Of a stretch of DNA of 64,000 nt, positions 15,273 to 44,609 are shown piece by piece. The stretch's first letter is position 1; each line of letters begins with the position of its first letter. The DNA lies in contig NZ_OY760916.1 in NCBI RefSeq assembly GCF_963664075.1, forward strand, positions 2,296,001 to 2,360,000. The letters run 5' to 3'. The notes beneath the pieces were generated by a model. That model was not told the DNA's origin and did no database searches. It worked only from the letters and a program-made list of their open reading frames with translations. The translations under genes were made by a program, and so were the position numbers. The stretch comes from an uncultured Desulfobulbus sp. Its GTDB lineage: Bacteria > Desulfobacterota > Desulfobulbia > Desulfobulbales > Desulfobulbaceae.

Positions 15273-15301
15273 TTGACAACTTTTTAAGGTAAAGCTAAAA
15301 G
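15273..15301 (+). promoter_or_regulatory. Promoter of the Crp/Fnr gene with overlapping operator
   Basis: TTGACA at 15273-15278 is separated by 17 bp from TAAAAG at 15296-15301. The 14-bp sequence TAAG-GTAAAG-CTAA at 15285-15298 sits 6 bp after the -35 box and overlaps the -10 box. It has two mismatches (positions 2 and 3 of the left half-site aside, TA for TT) relative to the exact TTAG-N6-CTAA motif found nearby. This position predicts repression, probably autorepression. Confidence 0.5.
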
Positions 15302-15334
15302 CGTGTATCACAGCTCCCCAATAGGGAGCAATTA

Positions 15335-16192
15335 TTGAGGCTTATTCTTCACTACGAACCTTATCGCCTGTATATCTCTGAACAAATGAAATCATCCCTA
15401 GCGCAGCTTCATCCCAGCACAATGGCGGATCGCTCGACAATGCAAGAACGCACAGGTTTACTCAAGAGCCCTCTATTACTGCGCTTGTCTCCAGAACTGC
15501 AGCAGCAACTGCAAACCATGGCTATCTTTCGCCCCCTCAAGCGCGGAGAACACCTGTTTTTTGAAGGTGAGCCAATCCACCACTTTCACTACCTGCTCAG
15601 CGGCCGCATCAAGGAATACTACCCCACCAGTGAAGGTGAACTATGCCTGCGGCATATCGCCTTGCCTGGTCACTACCTGAGCCTGCACCAACTGCTTTCC
15701 AAGCACATCAACTATAGTTACTCAGCTCAGGCCATTGCGGCCTGTCGCTGCTGGTCCTGGCCCATCAATTTTTTTTCGGACATGATGAGTCGTGAGCCCT
15801 CTGTCTCGATGCAGGTTGTCCGCCTGCTCTCAGAAAATGTGGAGCACTCCTGCCGACACACCTGCCTTTGCCGCAAGTCACGGGCTCTGGCAAAAGTCGC
15901 AGGCTACCTGTTGAGCAAAAAAGGCCATCTGACCCGGCAGGCCAGACTCATCGGCAACATAACGCCCTCAATCCAGATAGATCTCCGTCCCCTGGAGCTG
16001 GCTGCCGATGAAATCTGCCTGGCCAGAGAAACCTTTTCCCGAGCCCTCACAATTCTCACAGAACAGGAACTGGTGCAAGTCAGACATGGTGTAGTCGAGT
16101 TGCTCGATGAGCAAGGCTTGAGAGAAGTAAGCACGGTAGCCAATGGTCCTGGATGCGTCAAAGGGAGAAGACGTAAAAAACAGGGGTTGTGA
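15335..16192 (+). CDS. Crp/Fnr-family regulator with Cys-rich segment
   Basis: This 285-residue regulator has a cyclic-nucleotide-binding-like beta barrel (about residues 45-135), a dimerisation helix, and a C-terminal winged helix. The recognition segment ETFSRAL near residue 230 retains the E..SR pattern of Fnr-type proteins. Cysteines cluster in CRCW (about 138) and in SCRHTCLC (about 171-178), next to the dimer helix rather than at the N-terminus as in Fnr. The TTG start at 15335 has a GGGAG site 6 bp upstream; ATG codons at 15386 and 15422 lack one. It probably senses redox or iron through its cysteines, which is inference. Confidence 0.8.
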   Translation: MRLILHYEPYRLYISEQMKSSLAQLHPSTMADRSTMQERTGLLKSPLLLRLSPELQQQLQTMAIFRPLKRGEHLFFEGEPIHHFHYLLSGRIKEYYPTSEGELCLRHIALPGHYLSLHQLLSKHINYSYSAQAIAACRCWSWPINFFSDMMSREPSVSMQVVRLLSENVEHSCRHTCLCRKSRALAKVAGYLLSKKGHLTRQARLIGNITPSIQIDLRPLELAADEICLARETFSRALTILTEQELVQVRHGVVELLDEQGLREVSTVANGPGCVKGRRRKKQGL

Positions 16193-16222
16193 GTACCGGT
16201 CGATCAGGATGAGAACCTGGAT

Positions 16223-16813
16223 TCAGTAATCTTTACGCTGAAAAATTGAGATCTGCATCATCTGGCCGGTGATCCTGGAGACATGAACATCGCCTATCAG
16301 GGTATACGCTTCAGGATCTGCTGCGTCGGGATGGTCTGGATCGTTTTTCCTGACAAGCTCCAGGGTCTGAGCCTTAGGTTCAAAAAAGACTACGGAACCA
16401 CCGGGTTTGCTCACCCTGAAGGCTTCATGGAAAACATTTTGCCGCAGGGCTTCATCGATGTGGTGCAATACTCCAAAAAAGAAGACCGCATCAAATGATT
16501 GTTTAGAAAAGGGCATGTCGTCTGCCGCAAAAGGCTGAAAGTGTATCCGCTCTGCAACACCCAAACGTTTTGCCTTGTCATACCAATCCTTGCCCGCGTA
16601 GATGGACGTATCGTTCGCCGGTTCCCCGGTCACAACTGAAAAGCCCTCCAGCGCCAGTGAAAGGGCGCATTGCGCGGCCCCCGTCCCCACATCAAGAATG
16701 TTCGCCCCTGGTTTGAGCTCAAGTGTTGCAAGCGCCAGAGAAACATCACCTGCCACCGCAGTAAAAATTGGCCCCATTATCTCGAATGAAGTATCGCCGT
16801 CCAATTGTATCAC
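16223..16813 (-). CDS. Class I SAM-dependent methyltransferase
   Basis: This 196-residue Rossmann-fold methyltransferase has motif I ILDVGTGAAQ near residue 39, an acidic post-I segment, a DAVFFFGVLHHID segment (motif IV) and a KPGGSVVFFEP motif (post-IV). The substrate is not evident, although Methyltransf_11-type proteins often act on small molecules or lipids. It is encoded convergently to the Crp/Fnr regulator, ending 30 bp from its stop. The ATG at 16813 is the only good start, without a clear Shine-Dalgarno site. Confidence 0.75.
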   Translation of the reverse strand: MIQLDGDTSFEIMGPIFTAVAGDVSLALATLELKPGANILDVGTGAAQCALSLALEGFSVVTGEPANDTSIYAGKDWYDKAKRLGVAERIHFQPFAADDMPFSKQSFDAVFFFGVLHHIDEALRQNVFHEAFRVSKPGGSVVFFEPKAQTLELVRKNDPDHPDAADPEAYTLIGDVHVSRITGQMMQISIFQRKDY

Positions 16814-17275
16814 CTCTGTGAAAATGTTGTCTCATTAAAAATGATACCTGAATCTGTGACCGCCCGCCGCCACGGATCCAAGATTTCCTTTCGCAGTCCT
16901 GGTGAAGGGGTCACGTCGTCGTGGACTTCGACCAGAAATATTCGTTTTTGCACCAGGTTGGATCAAGAAAAACTGTGTATCCCCCGTTGCCTTCCCCCTC
17001 CACTTTTACTCGTTTTCGTTCCTTTATTGCAACAGCATATTTCAGCCCCTCCGTCTTTTATTAGACGCGTCTAATTTTACAGTTGACAGGAGCTCCTATC
17101 AAAGTTAGTCTCGCCTGAGTCAAATTCGTTATTCCCGTATACAGCCCCGTAAACGATATCGCGAACTTCGTACCATACCGATTTCATAATCGGAGATCTT
17201 AAGCGTTTTAACTCTTTACAAGGGTATCAATGTTCAAAATTTTTGCACTTTACACTTGATCAAAGGAGGCCTGAT
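16814..17275. other. Intergenic region with promoter for small membrane proteins
   Basis: This 462-bp region has no convincing gene. It contains the 16-bp palindrome at 17060, the candidate promoter at 17083-17111 and a 5' leader of about 160 bases before the first small gene. A CCGATT/AATCGG hairpin lies in the leader near 17178-17193. Short frames here lack coding character. Confidence 0.6.
17060..17111 (+). promoter_or_regulatory. TTAG-N6-CTAA palindrome and downstream promoter
   Basis: ATTAGACGCGTCTAAT at 17060-17075 is a perfect 16-bp palindrome. Its CTAA half-site ends 8 bp before TTGACA (17083-17088), which is followed after 17 bp by a weak -10, TAGTCT (17106-17111). The same 8-bp gap is found at the promoter near 18988. 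The position centred near -50 suggests an activator or co-regulator site. Confidence 0.5.
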
Positions 17276-17410
17276 ATGTTTGCATTTATACCAATAGCGT
17301 GCAGTGTAGCCACAGCCCTGACATGTGTCCTTGCCCTGCAGACCGGCAAAGGGACCATGCGAACCCTAGGACGAAGAAAGAGACGAAATGCCAGAAAAGC
17401 TCGATCGTGA
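17276..17410 (+). CDS. 44-residue membrane peptide with basic tail
   Basis: This short gene encodes a hydrophobic segment (residues 1-22) followed by a strongly basic C-terminus rich in Arg and Lys. A consensus AAAGGAGG ribosome site lies 7 bp before the ATG, which is the main support for translation. Its end overlaps the next gene by 23 bp, so the two are likely co-translated. The topology suggests a single-pass inner-membrane peptide with a cytoplasmic basic tail. No family is recognised. Confidence 0.55.
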   Translation: MFAFIPIACSVATALTCVLALQTGKGTMRTLGRRKRRNARKARS

Positions 17411-17678
17411 GACCAAAAAAGAAATTGCCAAGATTGGCATGACAGCCACCCTTGGCATTACGGTGATAACGGCGCCCTTTTTAAAGGGCAATCGGTTGAT
17501 GAAAAACCTGCACACAGGTGCGGGTGTGGCCCTGGTCGCTTTCAGTCTCTGGCATCAGTTTCTTTACCAGCCAGAAAAGCGGACAACCAAAGTGAAATCG
17601 CTAACTCCGAGAACAGATTTGTCCCCTGCTCCGGTTGCTGCATCAGATTCGGCAACCGACCTGCCCCCTTCTGCTTAG
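17388..17678 (+). CDS. Small membrane protein with two spaced histidines
   Basis: This 96-residue protein has two hydrophobic segments (about residues 15-30 and 43-60). The second contains His residues 14 apart (LHTG...LWHQF), a spacing also seen in b-type heme-binding helices such as DUF4405 or cytochrome b561-like proteins. A Pro/Ala-rich tail follows. It overlaps the 44-residue gene upstream. A heme-binding role is inference from two residues only. Confidence 0.55.
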   Translation: MPEKLDRETKKEIAKIGMTATLGITVITAPFLKGNRLMKNLHTGAGVALVAFSLWHQFLYQPEKRTTKVKSLTPRTDLSPAPVAASDSATDLPPSA

Positions 17679-17700
17679 ACATTTTCTCCGCCACATACCA

Positions 17701-17735
17701 ACACCCCGCACCGCATGATTTGTGGTGCGGGGTGT
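17701..17735 (+). terminator. GC-rich terminator-like hairpin
   Basis: Twelve-base perfect arms ACACCCCGCACC and GGTGCGGGGTGT flank an 11-base loop. The hairpin is 22 bp after the stop of the small membrane protein gene. The U-tract is poor, so termination efficiency is uncertain. Confidence 0.6.
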
Positions 17736-17831
17736 CTCGTATTGTCTAACGAGGGATGATTTCCTAGAAGAATTCGGGGTGAGGGGGCATCAATGACTGC
17801 TTACGATAACGTCACATGAATTATGTGAAAC

Positions 17832-17940
17832 TTGATGGCAACGTAAAAAGTCAAAAAACTATAATCTGGCCTTAATAAATTCAGCTTGTTACGCAGCTCG
17901 GAACGTCGTTCTCGGTGCTTTTTACGAGAACGACAGTCTT
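17832..17940 (+). repeat. Dispersed repeat, copy C
   Basis: This copy has the same block order as copy B: TTGATGGCAACGTAAAAAGTC, an AATAAATTCAG block, then GCAGCTCGGAACGTCGTTCTCGG-type core and CGAGAACGAC arm. It is fused to the 3' end of the gene on the minus strand, whose last 19 codons and stop are read from the repeat. Confidence 0.75.
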
Positions 17941-18747
17941 GGGTCTGACGGCATCCGCGCCCCTACAGCAGGTGCAACTTCCGATCCGCCGGGCAAGCTT
18001 CTCATACCAATCTGTATCATCCAATAGACGTAACACCGCCTGCATGAGTTTTTCCATGCTTTCGTGAGTTGTGACCCTTTCTTCTGCCCGCCGCAGGCAC
18101 ACCCAGGCCCCGCACCGATTGTTGATCAAGGTGACGAGCTCGTCTGCAGTGGCAATCAATGCCTCTGGTTCCGTGGCCAGGTCACCGGCCCGCAGAAGGA
18201 GCAGGTCCGCCAGCACTCTATCGCCGGTAATGGCAAGCACCTTACGCGCAAGAAAAAGACAGCTGCCATGATCGGTTGCTCGCCTTCTTGCCTGCTGCAA
18301 GATTTCGCGTCCGGCCTCCAGGTCGCCAAGCTCCTGCACGACCTGCTCTGCGATTCCTGCCAATTCCTTCACACACTCGCAAAAATTCGCTGCTGCTCGA
18401 TAGAGTCGCAGAGCAAGGGTTCTATCCCTGAGATATGTATGGCAATATCGAGCCATCTGCGCATGATCGCCACTTGATTTGAGCGTATATATCGTTTCGG
18501 AAGCTAGAATTTTTGCGATCTCACGATCATTCAGCAAGCTGACAACCGCACTGATCAGAATCTGGTAATCCTCAAGGGTGGCACAAGATCGCCGTGCGAT
18601 TTCCAGGGCCCTTGACATCCCCGCACTGTTGTTGGCAAGGGCAAAGTTCGCCGCAAGTTGCGTAAAGTCTGAAGTGGTACGACACTGCTCATAGCGCAGT
18701 AGCTTCAGGTCATCGCCTGCTTCGCTGTATGTTTGAGATAACGCCAT
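17881..18747 (-). CDS. Alpha-helical repeat protein, C-terminus supplied by a repeat
   Basis: This 288-residue protein is predicted almost wholly alpha-helical, with Ala/Leu-rich segments resembling TPR or HEAT repeats and scattered cysteines, including CTCC near the end. I do not recognise the family. Its last 19 residues, starting KTVVLVKSTENDV, are encoded inside dispersed repeat copy C, so the original terminus was probably replaced or extended by the insertion. An AGGAAAC site precedes the ATG. It is divergent from the DUF2325 gene, with three TTAG-N6-CTAA sites in between, so shared regulation is likely. Confidence 0.6.
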   Translation of the reverse strand: MALSQTYSEAGDDLKLLRYEQCRTTSDFTQLAANFALANNSAGMSRALEIARRSCATLEDYQILISAVVSLLNDREIAKILASETIYTLKSSGDHAQMARYCHTYLRDRTLALRLYRAAANFCECVKELAGIAEQVVQELGDLEAGREILQQARRRATDHGSCLFLARKVLAITGDRVLADLLLLRAGDLATEPEALIATADELVTLINNRCGAWVCLRRAEERVTTHESMEKLMQAVLRLLDDTDWYEKLARRIGSCTCCRGADAVRPKTVVLVKSTENDVPSCVTS

Positions 18748-19088
18748 CGCTCTGTTTCCTATTGAGGCTAGTAGTAAAAAAGTATCGTCCTATTCGCTCC
18801 ACAGGCAAACTCGGATCCAAACCGACGTACCTGAGCCAATAAAAGTTAGATTAAACTAATAATATTGTCAATTGAAAAATTGACCTGGAATTTTTCTCCC
18901 CCTCCATCTACAGACAAGCAAAAAAAATCATATTTTACAGTGTATTAGAATATAATATATACAAATTAGGTAACTCTAAAAAATTTATTGACATTTTCCC
19001 TCGCAACCGTCATGATAGCAAATATTAGACAACGCTAAAAAAGTAAAATCAACTTAACACTTTCCGATCGAGTCTTGAGGTGTGCTTT
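18748..19088. promoter_or_regulatory. Divergent control region with three TTAG-N6-CTAA sites
   Basis: Three exact motifs lie at 18846-18859, 18966-18979 and 19025-19038. A minus-strand promoter TTGACA (18871-18866) is followed after 6 bp by the first site, which overlaps the presumed -10. A plus-strand TTGACA (18988-18993), preceded by the second site with an 8-bp gap, pairs with CATGAT at 19011-19016. The third site lies near +8. The region is very AT-rich. Confidence 0.55.
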
Positions 19089-20345
19089 ATGAATACGATC
19101 ACCGTGGCTTCACGTCCCCTGGCCAAACGACCAATCTGGGAGATTGAACCTTGCTTCAAATGTGCCCTTGTCGGCACCTGTCTGAGCCGGGCGGAATTAC
19201 GAAAATTAGGCAAAGAAAAGGTCTACAAAACACCATCCAAGCTTGATGATTATCAGCTCCACACCCATTTCATCCAAATCTCGGACACTTCGGATGACTC
19301 AGGACGCGCCCTGCAGAAATACCTCTCAAAAAAATACCGCAGCCATCAGAAAAAATACCAGATGGTCAGGGATGAGTCAGAGGTTCTGGCGCTATGGAAA
19401 CAGGATCTGGCCGAGGGAAAAATTGATGCCGCCTGGTGGAGTGTGCTGGTGCACCCCTACGCCTCGGCCAGTCTTGTCAGCCGTTGTTATGGCGAGCTGC
19501 ATATGCTGAGTCATGACTGCACCAACAGCATGTATCGCACACGTAAACTCATCGCTGAGCTGCGTTCAAAGCTGGCGATGATCGAGGAGGTCATGGGATC
19601 TGAACGACAACAGTTTAGAAAGGATAGAAAGATACTCTTGGCTGAGAACACTGCCCTGCAAGAGGAGCTTACCGCCACCAGGACCGCCCTTGACAAAGCG
19701 GAGTCAGCACTGAAAGATCCCCGGGATAGAGCGACGGCAATCAACCAAAAGCTCGAACAGAAACAGGAGCTCATCGAGAGTATACGCCAGGACAACAACA
19801 TTCTGGTTGGCCAGCTCGATGCGCTGAGTGAAGAGGCGGATACCCTGCGCAGCAGGGTCGCCCGCCAGGACAGTCAGGTGCAACAGTTAAAAGAGGCGAA
19901 CAACTCCCTGGAACAACGCTGCCAGGAGCAGGCGCGGGAACTGGCCGTACTGGAGAGAGATTTCTTTGATCGATTGGGTGATGAGCAAAGCCCCTGTTCG
20001 GTTTGCGCCGACAAGGATACATCCAACTGCCCCGGACTGAATCTCTGTGGGAAAACCGTGCTCTATGTGGGCGGGTTGCACAAAATGGTCCCTCACTATC
20101 GCCAGTTGGTTGAACAGTCAGGGGGCCGTTTTCTCCACCACGATGGAGGGAAAGAGGCTTCTCGGAACATGCTGCCGAAGTTACTGAACACAGCGGACGC
20201 TGTTCTCTGCCCCATAGACTGTGTCAGTCATGACGCCTGCAAGTGTGTCAAAAAAATGTGTAAACGATACCAAAAACCTTTTGTTCCCATGCGCAGCTCC
20301 GGGCTCTCATCCCTGGCTCGGGGACTGAGTGACATTGTGCAATAA
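19089..20345 (+). CDS. DUF2325-domain coiled-coil protein, Cys-rich
   Basis: This 418-residue protein has an N-terminal Cys motif (PCFKCALVGTC, residues 21-31), a long coiled coil (about 150-300), and a CSVC...CPGLNLC cysteine cluster. A C-terminal DUF2325 domain begins with VLYVGGLHKMVPHYR and has CPIDCVSHDACKCVKKMCK. DUF2325 proteins have no established biochemical role that I can state. The cysteines suggest metal binding or redox sensing. The start at 19089 is chosen because GAGG lies 8 bp upstream; a GTG at 19080 would overlap it. It heads an operon with a small Cys protein and a flavodoxin. Confidence 0.75.
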   Translation: MNTITVASRPLAKRPIWEIEPCFKCALVGTCLSRAELRKLGKEKVYKTPSKLDDYQLHTHFIQISDTSDDSGRALQKYLSKKYRSHQKKYQMVRDESEVLALWKQDLAEGKIDAAWWSVLVHPYASASLVSRCYGELHMLSHDCTNSMYRTRKLIAELRSKLAMIEEVMGSERQQFRKDRKILLAENTALQEELTATRTALDKAESALKDPRDRATAINQKLEQKQELIESIRQDNNILVGQLDALSEEADTLRSRVARQDSQVQQLKEANNSLEQRCQEQARELAVLERDFFDRLGDEQSPCSVCADKDTSNCPGLNLCGKTVLYVGGLHKMVPHYRQLVEQSGGRFLHHDGGKEASRNMLPKLLNTADAVLCPIDCVSHDACKCVKKMCKRYQKPFVPMRSSGLSSLARGLSDIVQ

Positions 20346-20369: not shown

Positions 20370-20723
20370 ATGGATATACAACCACTTCAGACAGTCTACC
20401 GGGACGGCAACCTCCATATCAGCCTTGATGGCCCCTTTACCTCGGAGACAGCCCTGCAGCTCTCCAATACCATTGCCACTGATTATTATGGAGAAGGCAA
20501 TATTTTCGTGCACACCGGTAGGGTATCAGCCATTTCCCCCCAAAGTCGGGTCACCTTTGAAGAAATGACGGAGATACTTGCTCTACCGCGCAAGAAGATC
20601 TATCTCACCGGCCAGAATGGGCTGAAGATAGGCCCCAACAAAGTTCGAGTCATCGTCTATGATCCCCTTGATAAGGGCTGCTGTGGCAACTGTCATGATG
20701 GTGAACATTCGGCTGACACCTGA
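20370..20723 (+). CDS. Small protein with CCGNCH C-terminal motif, unknown
   Basis: This 117-residue soluble protein has a beta/alpha pattern and ends in GCCGNCHDGEH, a cluster of Cys and His that could bind a metal or heme. No family is recognised with confidence. It follows the DUF2325 gene by 24 bp and precedes the flavodoxin gene by 75 bp on the same strand, implying a shared operon and a possible redox partnership. Whether CxxCH is a true heme c site is doubtful, because no signal peptide is present and the motif reads CGNCH. Confidence 0.6.
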   Translation: MDIQPLQTVYRDGNLHISLDGPFTSETALQLSNTIATDYYGEGNIFVHTGRVSAISPQSRVTFEEMTEILALPRKKIYLTGQNGLKIGPNKVRVIVYDPLDKGCCGNCHDGEHSADT

Positions 20724-20798: not shown

Positions 20799-21245
20799 AT
20801 GGCAAAAACACTGATCGTCTATGGTTCAACCACAGGAAACACTGAAAACACCGCCATTGAAATCGGCAATGTACTCGGGAAAGAGGGGCATGAAGTCGTG
20901 ATTCAGGATGTCAGCAAAAGCAAGGTGGCAGACCTGGGAAATGGGTATGACCTCACCCTGCTGGGCTCATCGACCTGGGGCGATGACGAGATCGAGTTTC
21001 AGGAGGACTTTGCCTCCTTTTTTGAAGAGATGGACAACGCAGATCTCAAAGATAAAAAAGTGGCTGTCTTTGGATGTGGCGATTCCAGTTATACCTACTT
21101 CTGCGGTGCGGTTGACGAGCTCCAGGCCAAAGTTGAGAGCCTGGGGGGCAAGGTGGTGGTCGAGTCACTGAAAATTGATGGCGATCCGGGTGATGTCAAC
21201 GATGAGATCGTCGACTGGGCTAAGGAGGTGGCGGCGGCTCTGTAA
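20799..21245 (+). CDS. Flavodoxin
   Basis: This 148-residue protein is a short-chain flavodoxin. The FMN phosphate loop GSTTGNTENT lies near residues 8-17, a STWGDDEIEFQ loop near 58, and a CGDSSYTYFCGAVD segment around 90-103. It carries low-potential electrons in place of ferredoxin, often under iron limitation, which is known of the family. An AAGGAGA site precedes the ATG. Its position after the DUF2325 and Cys-motif genes suggests the cluster manages redox or iron stress. Confidence 0.93.
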   Translation: MAKTLIVYGSTTGNTENTAIEIGNVLGKEGHEVVIQDVSKSKVADLGNGYDLTLLGSSTWGDDEIEFQEDFASFFEEMDNADLKDKKVAVFGCGDSSYTYFCGAVDELQAKVESLGGKVVVESLKIDGDPGDVNDEIVDWAKEVAAAL

Positions 21246-22002: not shown

Positions 22003-22254
22003 ATGAGAACAACAGTAAGAAAAATTGGGAATAGCTTGGGAAGTATTATCCCCGCGCCAGTGGCGAGAGAGTTTGCGCTTGAAGCCGGCAGCGAGATTGA
22101 AATCTCAATGAAGGACGGCAAAATCATAATTGAACCAATTTCTGAGATAAAACGGTTACCGTTTTCCGAAAAGGATCTACTCAAGGGATTAACAGCTCAC
22201 ACGGCCCATGCGGATGAACTGTCTGAAATTTCACCGACAGAGTGGGGTGAATAG
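22003..22254 (+). CDS. mazE: MazE-like AbrB-fold antitoxin
   Basis: This 83-residue protein has an N-terminal SpoVT/AbrB swapped-hairpin domain (RKIGNSLGSIIPAPVAREFAL...GSEIEI) and an acidic C-terminal tail that would bind and block MazF. It probably represses its own promoter through the AbrB domain. A GGGGTG site lies upstream of the ATG. The stop TAG overlaps the GTG start of the toxin gene by one base, which couples synthesis. Confidence 0.9.
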   Translation: MRTTVRKIGNSLGSIIPAPVAREFALEAGSEIEISMKDGKIIIEPISEIKRLPFSEKDLLKGLTAHTAHADELSEISPTEWGE

Positions 22255-22604
22255 TGGCTCGTTACACTCCTGATCGAAACGATATTGTCTGGCTTGATTT
22301 TGAGCCAACAAAAGGCCGTGAGATAGGCAAATACCGGCCAGCTCTGGTTTTGTCGAGCAAAGCCTATAACCGGCAAACCGGCTTATTGATTTGCTGCCCT
22401 ATAAGCACCAGTATCAGAGGGGGGATAACGGAAGTTCCTATCCATAACCTTGATAAGCCCTCTGTTGTTGCGGCCAGCCTCATACAGACGCTGTCTTGGC
22501 AGAATCGAGCCGCCAAGAAAATTACGACCGCTGAGGCAGGGGTTCTGGATGATGTGCTTTATCGTCTGATTCCACTGATTGGTGGTGGAAACCTTCTAAA
22601 CTGA
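22254..22604 (+). CDS. mazF: MazF-like endoribonuclease toxin
   Basis: This 116-residue toxin of the MazF/PemK fold has RGDIVWLDF-like beginnings (NDIVWLDFEPTKGREIGKYRPALVLS), an LLICCPIST strand and an HNLDKPSVV segment. It also has the SLIQTLSWQNR segment that corresponds to the conserved DQ/Thr region of the dimer core. These toxins cleave mRNA at short sequences, and this one's specificity cannot be read here. It uses the GTG start overlapping the mazE stop. Confidence 0.9.
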   Translation: MARYTPDRNDIVWLDFEPTKGREIGKYRPALVLSSKAYNRQTGLLICCPISTSIRGGITEVPIHNLDKPSVVAASLIQTLSWQNRAAKKITTAEAGVLDDVLYRLIPLIGGGNLLN

Positions 22605-44558: not shown

Positions 44559-44609
44559 GATTCCTCCATACATTGAATTTGATCAATAAGTAGTGTAAGA
44601 ACGAGGCCA

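Follow-up and report, generated by a model that had tools for sequence, protein, structure and literature searches.

Four exact copies and one near copy of the palindrome TTAG-N6-CTAA lie in the promoter regions of a small gene cluster in the window analysed here, a stretch of 64,000 nucleotides (64 kb) from the genome of an uncultured Desulfobulbus sp. Judged from sequence, these sites very probably belong to an iron regulon of the DtxR type, whose targets would include the gene for a Crp/Fnr-family regulator and a DUF2325-flavodoxin cluster. This would place the unexplained DUF2325 family in a putative iron-regulated cluster. Our own labels are used below for genomes (G), loci (L) and families of the order (f).

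Palindromic sites in the window and in the genome

Pattern scans of the window place the exact copies at 17061-17074 (TTAGACGCGTCTAA), 18846-18859 (TTAGATTAAACTAA), 18966-18979 (TTAGGTAACTCTAA) and 19025-19038 (TTAGACAACGCTAA), and the near copy, TAAGGTAAAGCTAA, which carries one mismatch, at 15285-15298 on the plus strand. Exact sites are expected at 0.45 per 64 kb; the maximum in 100 dinucleotide shuffles was two, and none reached four. At the one-mismatch level the window contains 7 matches versus 14.2 expected, so that what is unusual is the exactness and position of the sites and not the one-mismatch count.

Two arrangements of the palindrome and a -35-like TTGACA box recur exactly. In the first, the motif follows TTGACA after 6 bp. 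This is found on the plus strand at 15273-15278, where the near match overlaps the predicted -10 region of the Crp/Fnr gene (15335-16192, plus strand), and on the minus strand at 18871-18866, where the site at 18846 lies over the putative -10 box of a gene for a TPR-like protein. In the second arrangement the motif ends 8 bp before TTGACA, the motif at 17061 preceding a box at 17083 and that at 18966 a box at 18988. The latter pair lies in the predicted promoter of the DUF2325 gene, where the 18966 site is the candidate upstream operator and the 19025 site, 59 bp further downstream and near the presumed transcription start, a candidate second one. The scans and shuffles bear out what the earlier note had claimed for the window, namely the promoter positions of all five sites, the two recurring spacings, and the presence of one of the sites, the near match at 15285, in the promoter of the Crp/Fnr gene itself.

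The 4.78-Mb genome holds 19 exact sites, and these are clustered, six pairs lying no more than 200 bp apart versus about 0.014 expected for 19 random places. Four regions account for these pairs. Besides the window cluster they are an operon feoA-feoA-feoB (feoAAB; FeoA and FeoB by Pfam), preceded by two sites with a spacing of 61 bp; a second feoA-feoB locus, which diverges from a NikL-like/DUF4198 operon and has a near match between its two sites, themselves 113 bp apart; and a paralogue of DUF2325 that diverges from katG, where the spacing is 62 bp. Single sites are found upstream of a flavodoxin gene (L006:9767; Pfam), an outer-membrane-protein-like gene (L008) and a DUF5320 gene (L005). 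Scanning the genome for the two arrangements returned exact matches to the first at 1544859 (second feo locus) and 2314846 (window), and to the second at 2268351 (DUF2325 paralogue), 2313061 and 2314966 (both in the window). With up to two mismatches there was no excess over the reversed-pattern control (10+7 versus 14+26; 6+7 versus 13+20), so only exact or near-exact matches to these arrangements carry weight. One-mismatch matches outside the known targets occur at 900099, 3201837 and 4472360; the first, inside an ammonium-transporter-like gene, and the last, between pgk- and tpi-like genes (assigned by eye), may be chance.

Conservation upstream of feoB and DUF2325

Desulfobulbus rhabdoformis (L001; Desulfobulbaceae) has a match, with at most one mismatch, at the counterpart of each of the five window sites (L001:5933, 7981, 10525, 10645 and 10705, in window order), and the N6 cores differ. 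As a bare count these five are not significant, since 2.65 are expected and 26 of 200 shuffles reach five; it is the positions that matter. When our genome and D. rhabdoformis are taken together (23 exact sites), the 8-bp spacing occurs five times and the 6-bp spacing three times, with a mean of 0.45 per offset.

The wider survey counted every tetramer inverted repeat (256 x 21, gaps of 0-20) in up to 1.5 kb upstream of the best feoB match of each genome. Within the family it covered 52 of the 58 other genomes, G035 contributing 340 bases; G008, G019, G032, G045, G049 and G050 were left out for weak, partial or contig-edge feoB matches. TTAG-N6-CTAA was the commonest inverted repeat, with 44 sites in 33 of the 52 genomes, followed by TTTT-N3-AAAA in 19 genomes. 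After shuffling of the upstream regions it was present in a mean of 0.68 genomes, with a maximum of 4. In the other families of the order, where 35 of 40 genomes were surveyed (G060, G062, G084, G086 and G091 being left out for the same reasons), TTAG-N6-CTAA again came first (21/35), and the repeat ranked second, TAGG-N4-CCTA in 14 genomes, consists of the inner bases of this box. Broken down by family, the site was present at feoB in 18 of 21 genomes of f4, 3 of 6 of f2, none of 7 of f3 and not in the one genome of f5.

A DUF2325 protein is encoded in 7 of 40 family genomes, our own included. Sites lie just upstream of its gene in G001, G026, G031, G033, G038 and G054 (L099); in G012 there is none just upstream, the nearest being about 1.8 kb off. 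Paired sites 58-67 bp apart precede feoB in G001, G014, G026 and G031, as they do in our genome.

These counts also bear on the proposal that the palindromes arose by chance in A+T-rich promoter DNA. In keeping with chance, the 19 exact sites of the genome are fewer than the approximately 34 scaled from the window shuffles and the 126 counted for the reversed control pattern. Chance is contradicted by the clustering of the sites, by the retention of their positions in D. rhabdoformis and by the excess over shuffling at feoB, both feoB surveys having already spoken against it, and we give it practically no weight. The earlier note had made its proposal depend on conservation of the motif upstream of orthologues; the motif proved to be conserved there, and this, together with the recurrence of the spacings in the genome, supports its view of the sites as operators of a small regulon.

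Candidate regulators

Sites with TTAG(G)...(C)CTAA half-sites and iron-uptake targets (feoAB), in a genome encoding a DtxR-family regulator, agree with the DtxR/IdeR systems. The DtxR consensus, quoted as TTAGGTTAG(G/C)CTAACCTAA (PMC1382209; PMC7762939), contains the 14-mer. The full 19-bp two-dimer box is not the rule here, most sites being single 14-mers; tandem 14-mers 15 bp apart occur in G051 and G054, and a 19-bp form, TTAGTTTAGGCTAGACTAA, lies ahead of DUF2325 in G031. Our genome has three DtxR-family genes over the cut-off for PF01325, all also matching PF02742. Their products are 165, 174 and 181 amino acids long, have no SH3 match in Pfam, and align to DtxR structures no further than residue 139. 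Short DtxR-family proteins are encoded in 52 of 59 family genomes and in 58 of 58 sampled genomes of the order (the match in G074 being weak), and in at least 10 of the 59 a DtxR-type gene lies within about 5 kb of feoB.

By best identity the 77 DtxR-type sequences collected (two genomes being counted twice) fall into three types, resembling the L012, L013 and L014 proteins of our genome. Their recognition helices read mostly VRASSVT[G/N/S/T/V]A in the L012 type, mostly VSxxSVTEA in the L013 type and VTGPSVTEA in the L014 type. We compared the letters of the feoB sites in site-positive genomes with a single DtxR match, which leaves out G075 (two matches). In the 34 genomes with the L013 type only (35 distinct sites), 56 of 70 half-sites carry G at base 5, or C as its partner, and TTAGG-N4-CCTAA accounts for 23 sites; in the nine with the L012 type only (10 distinct sites), G5 is found in 2 of 20 half-sites and TTAGG-N4-CCTAA never (p 1.6e-8 by half-sites, 2e-4 by TTAGG-N4-CCTAA sites). 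Adding G075 changes the L013-type count to 56/72 and the p values to 4.5e-8 and 6e-4; counted by genus (20 versus 3 genera), p is 0.008. The helix residue that differs is presumably DtxR residue 43, which we take to contact the bases. The covariation offers a simple handle on specificity, a single helix residue set against a single base pair. The 12 regulatory sites of our own genome have G5 in 8 of 24 half-sites and include no TTAGG-N4-CCTAA, which points to the L012 protein (1006825-1007346) as the one of the three most likely to bind the window sites. These 12 include the near match at 15285; eight exact sites, in L003, L004 (two), L005, L008, L009, L010 and L011, were set aside as intragenic or of unclear target. 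The corresponding list for DUF2325 includes an overlapping 14-mer from G031 that is not exact.

We lean towards a broader proposal built on these helices and letters: that in the Desulfobulbales iron control passed from Fur to short, SH3-less DtxR paralogues using paralogue-specific dialects of one 14-bp operator. A Glu helix (SVTEA) would go with TTAGG-N4-CCTAA and a Gly/Asn/Ser helix (SVT[G/N/S]A) with TTAG-N6-CTAA lacking G5; the second paralogue would run feoAAB, DUF2325, the 117-amino-acid protein encoded next to it, flavodoxin and, beneath it, the Crp/Fnr regulator.

The earlier note had instead made the Crp/Fnr protein at 15335 the regulator, binding TTAG-N6-CTAA and controlling itself and the cluster. 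The near match in its promoter and the 14-bp two-fold layout, shared with FNR and DNR sites, fit this idea, and a second Crp/Fnr gene, a 78% identical paralogue split by a frameshift into two frames (L104:3327-4119; G000:C1:2483826-2484618), is also preceded by a near match, TTAAGGTCTAGCTAA, which lies some 40 bp ahead of the matched region. Against it, the recognition helix of the 15335 protein (E-T-F-S-R) aligns with that of DNR, and helices of the DNR type (E..SR) are expected to read TTGA, where the half-site here is TTAG. The palindrome TTGA-N6-TCAA has a single match in the window, at 44573, far from the cluster, where 1.7 are expected. Moreover, a close relative of the protein (51% identity) occurs in 1 of the 58 other family genomes, the further matches (21-33%) being generic Crp/Fnr proteins. 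Almost every genome with the sites lacks a close orthologue. The clearest targets in the genome are iron genes, and the letters of the sites follow the DtxR type. On these grounds the protein was rejected as reader of the motif, a role we consider very unlikely; its gene is probably controlled and not the controller.

Iron genes are also the classical targets of Fur, and one of the four Fur-family proteins of the genome (PF01475) might read the sites. Each of the four is closest to a PerR model, with scores below every NCBIfam cut-off, for Fur as for PerR. TTAG-N6-CTAA is unlike the delta-proteobacterial Fur box as written in the 2004 survey of Rodionov et al., WTGAAAATNATTTTCAW (PMC545781). 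Allowing up to two mismatches, 51 feo loci from the family contained no copy of this box, and among the 35 genomes surveyed in other families it was seen in one. This exception, G074, has only a weak DtxR match and no site at feoB, a single case in line with a DtxR-type reader. Lacking a model match over cut-off and a Fur box in the feo loci of the family, Fur was rejected, and we hold it to be even less probable than the Crp/Fnr protein. The Fur regulon described in that survey resembles ours in its feoAB and flavodoxin targets and in having sometimes two boxes per promoter, and differs in box and protein family. Apart from Desulfotalea psychrophila, where neither Fur nor the box was found, every delta-proteobacterium that the survey covered is reported to have a Fur orthologue and the Fur box at feoAB; its iron section names no iron regulator for D. 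psychrophila (PMC545781). D. psychrophila is a member of the order studied here, and the sites and DtxR-type proteins would supply a candidate operator and a regulator family for these sediment sulfate reducers. No publication on a DtxR iron regulon in the Desulfobulbales was found among the matches listed in a search of open-licence full texts, RegPrecise-type databases lying outside that search.

Proteins of the DtxR type could also read the sites with manganese or another metal as co-repressor. Like MntR of B. subtilis and E. coli, the three proteins are short and without SH3, and they share its domain layout and the N-terminal EDY and E-H residues of its metal site; MntR structures rank high, and the nearest NCBIfam models are those of MntR, although all scores stay below the cut-offs. 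They differ from MntR in carrying Cys for the first Glu of E-x-x-E-H, the aligned sequences reading Cys-x-x-Glu-His in 77 of 77 cases whereas B. subtilis MntR has Glu-x-x-Glu-His. A Cys at this place goes with iron sensing in DtxR. As this substitution and the feoAB and flavodoxin targets both speak against another metal, we think that alternative unlikely and retain iron as the probable signal.

Compared with actinobacterial DtxR/IdeR (C. glutamicum, C. diphtheriae), the system proposed here has the same TTAG/CTAA half-sites, iron-uptake targets and pair of Pfam domains, and some sites likewise lie over promoters. It differs in its mostly single or paired 14-bp palindromes, where the known box has 19 bp, and in the missing C-terminal SH3-like domain. 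The last point tells against an iron regulon: according to the passage of a review that treats them, DtxR proteins without SH3 reported so far show no in vivo Fe2+ response (PMC7762939). An iron response of the present proteins in vivo would contradict this. The case is also of interest for the question of whether a short DtxR protein can serve as an iron regulator.

Several further observations, besides the MntR-like model scores, weigh on the same side. Six to eight of the 19 sites in the genome are within genes or next to genes that have no obvious part in iron metabolism; at least three are intragenic or at a gene end (L003 and two in L004), and for another three (L009, L010 and L011) no target is evident. 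Among 93 sites of other genomes the 6-bp spacing occurs six times and the 8-bp spacing three times versus a mean of 1.43 per offset, and three other offsets also reach six; so weak an enrichment was not counted as support. Seven of the 59 genomes of the family, including two more than 90% complete, yielded no DtxR match; DtxR presence and a site at feoB are not significantly associated in the family (32/47 versus 2/6, Fisher p 0.17) and were not used as support; and f3 has the protein with no site at its best feoB match. As to the covariation, seven of the nine genomes with only the L012 type come from a single genus, the two halves of a palindrome do not vary independently of each other, and the G075 site, contrary to our reading, has G5 on neither side.

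Taken together, the evidence argues for TTAG-N6-CTAA as the operator of short, SH3-less, metal-dependent repressors of the DtxR family that would run iron homeostasis in the Desulfobulbales. We infer binding, iron as the co-repressor and the direction of control as follows. A repressor dimer charged with Fe(II) would occupy the palindrome, lying over the -10 box at the promoters of the Crp/Fnr gene, the TPR-like gene and the second feo locus, and at those of feoAAB and DUF2325 on a pair of sites about 60 bp apart that flank the promoter. When iron is scarce the repressor would leave, and ferrous-iron uptake, flavodoxin and the DUF2325 cluster would be switched on, with the Crp/Fnr regulator as a subordinate.

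Genes of the window cluster and their neighbourhoods

The Crp/Fnr gene (cNMP_binding and HTH_Crp_2 domains by Pfam; helix RETFSR) is followed on the minus strand by a methyltransferase-like gene (16223-16813; Pfam), divergent from the 17061 promoter. Over the putative -10 region of that promoter lies a weak site with one mismatch, TTAGTCTCGCCTGA (17105-17118), and D. rhabdoformis retains a similar stretch, AAAGTTAG. Downstream, on the plus strand, are a small open reading frame for 44 amino acids without a Pfam match (17276-17410) and one for a 96-amino-acid membrane-like protein (17388-17678) with a weak DUF4405 match (E 0.078), homologues of which are encoded near DtxR-type genes (L098, L103) and near DUF2325 (L097). 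The TPR-like gene (17881-18747, minus strand; TPR match below cut-off only) has 288 codons versus 527 in D. rhabdoformis (L001:8877-10460), and in the window the C-terminal half of the gene product has apparently been lost.

The DUF2325 gene (19089-20345; PF10087, E 2.8e-29), the gene for the 117-amino-acid protein of unknown family (20370-20723) and a flavodoxin gene (20799-21245; Flavodoxin_1, E 1e-30), the last of the cluster, are all on the plus strand. The 117-amino-acid protein follows DUF2325 in relatives, and the order up to flavodoxin is kept in L098, L099 and L105. These locus maps serve as illustration and not as a count, their loci having been picked partly for closeness of DtxR, feoB or DUF2325 matches. 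A protein of the type encoded at L006:8449-9660 (porin-like by eye, without Pfam support) adjoins DUF2325 in L097, L099, L105 and L108 and feoB in L097 and L099, a recurring neighbourhood. The DUF2325 paralogue of our genome (L007:2725-5468) is divergent from katG, and the DUF2325 gene of Campylobacter, Cj1384c, likewise has a neighbour of this kind in katA (PMC9426514); published accounts of Cj1384c give a 352-fold increase under violet-blue light and a function as yet unknown.

The L014 DtxR gene is followed by one for a small protein and one for a heavy-metal P-type ATPase (L002:6502-9471; weak HMA_2 match below cut-off), possibly for metal efflux or storage; on a ferrosome link of this ATPase the papers listed gave nothing conclusive. 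Beyond the cluster, at 22003-22604 of the window, two overlapping small open reading frames resemble a toxin-antitoxin pair of the MazE/MazF type, as judged by eye from their translations.

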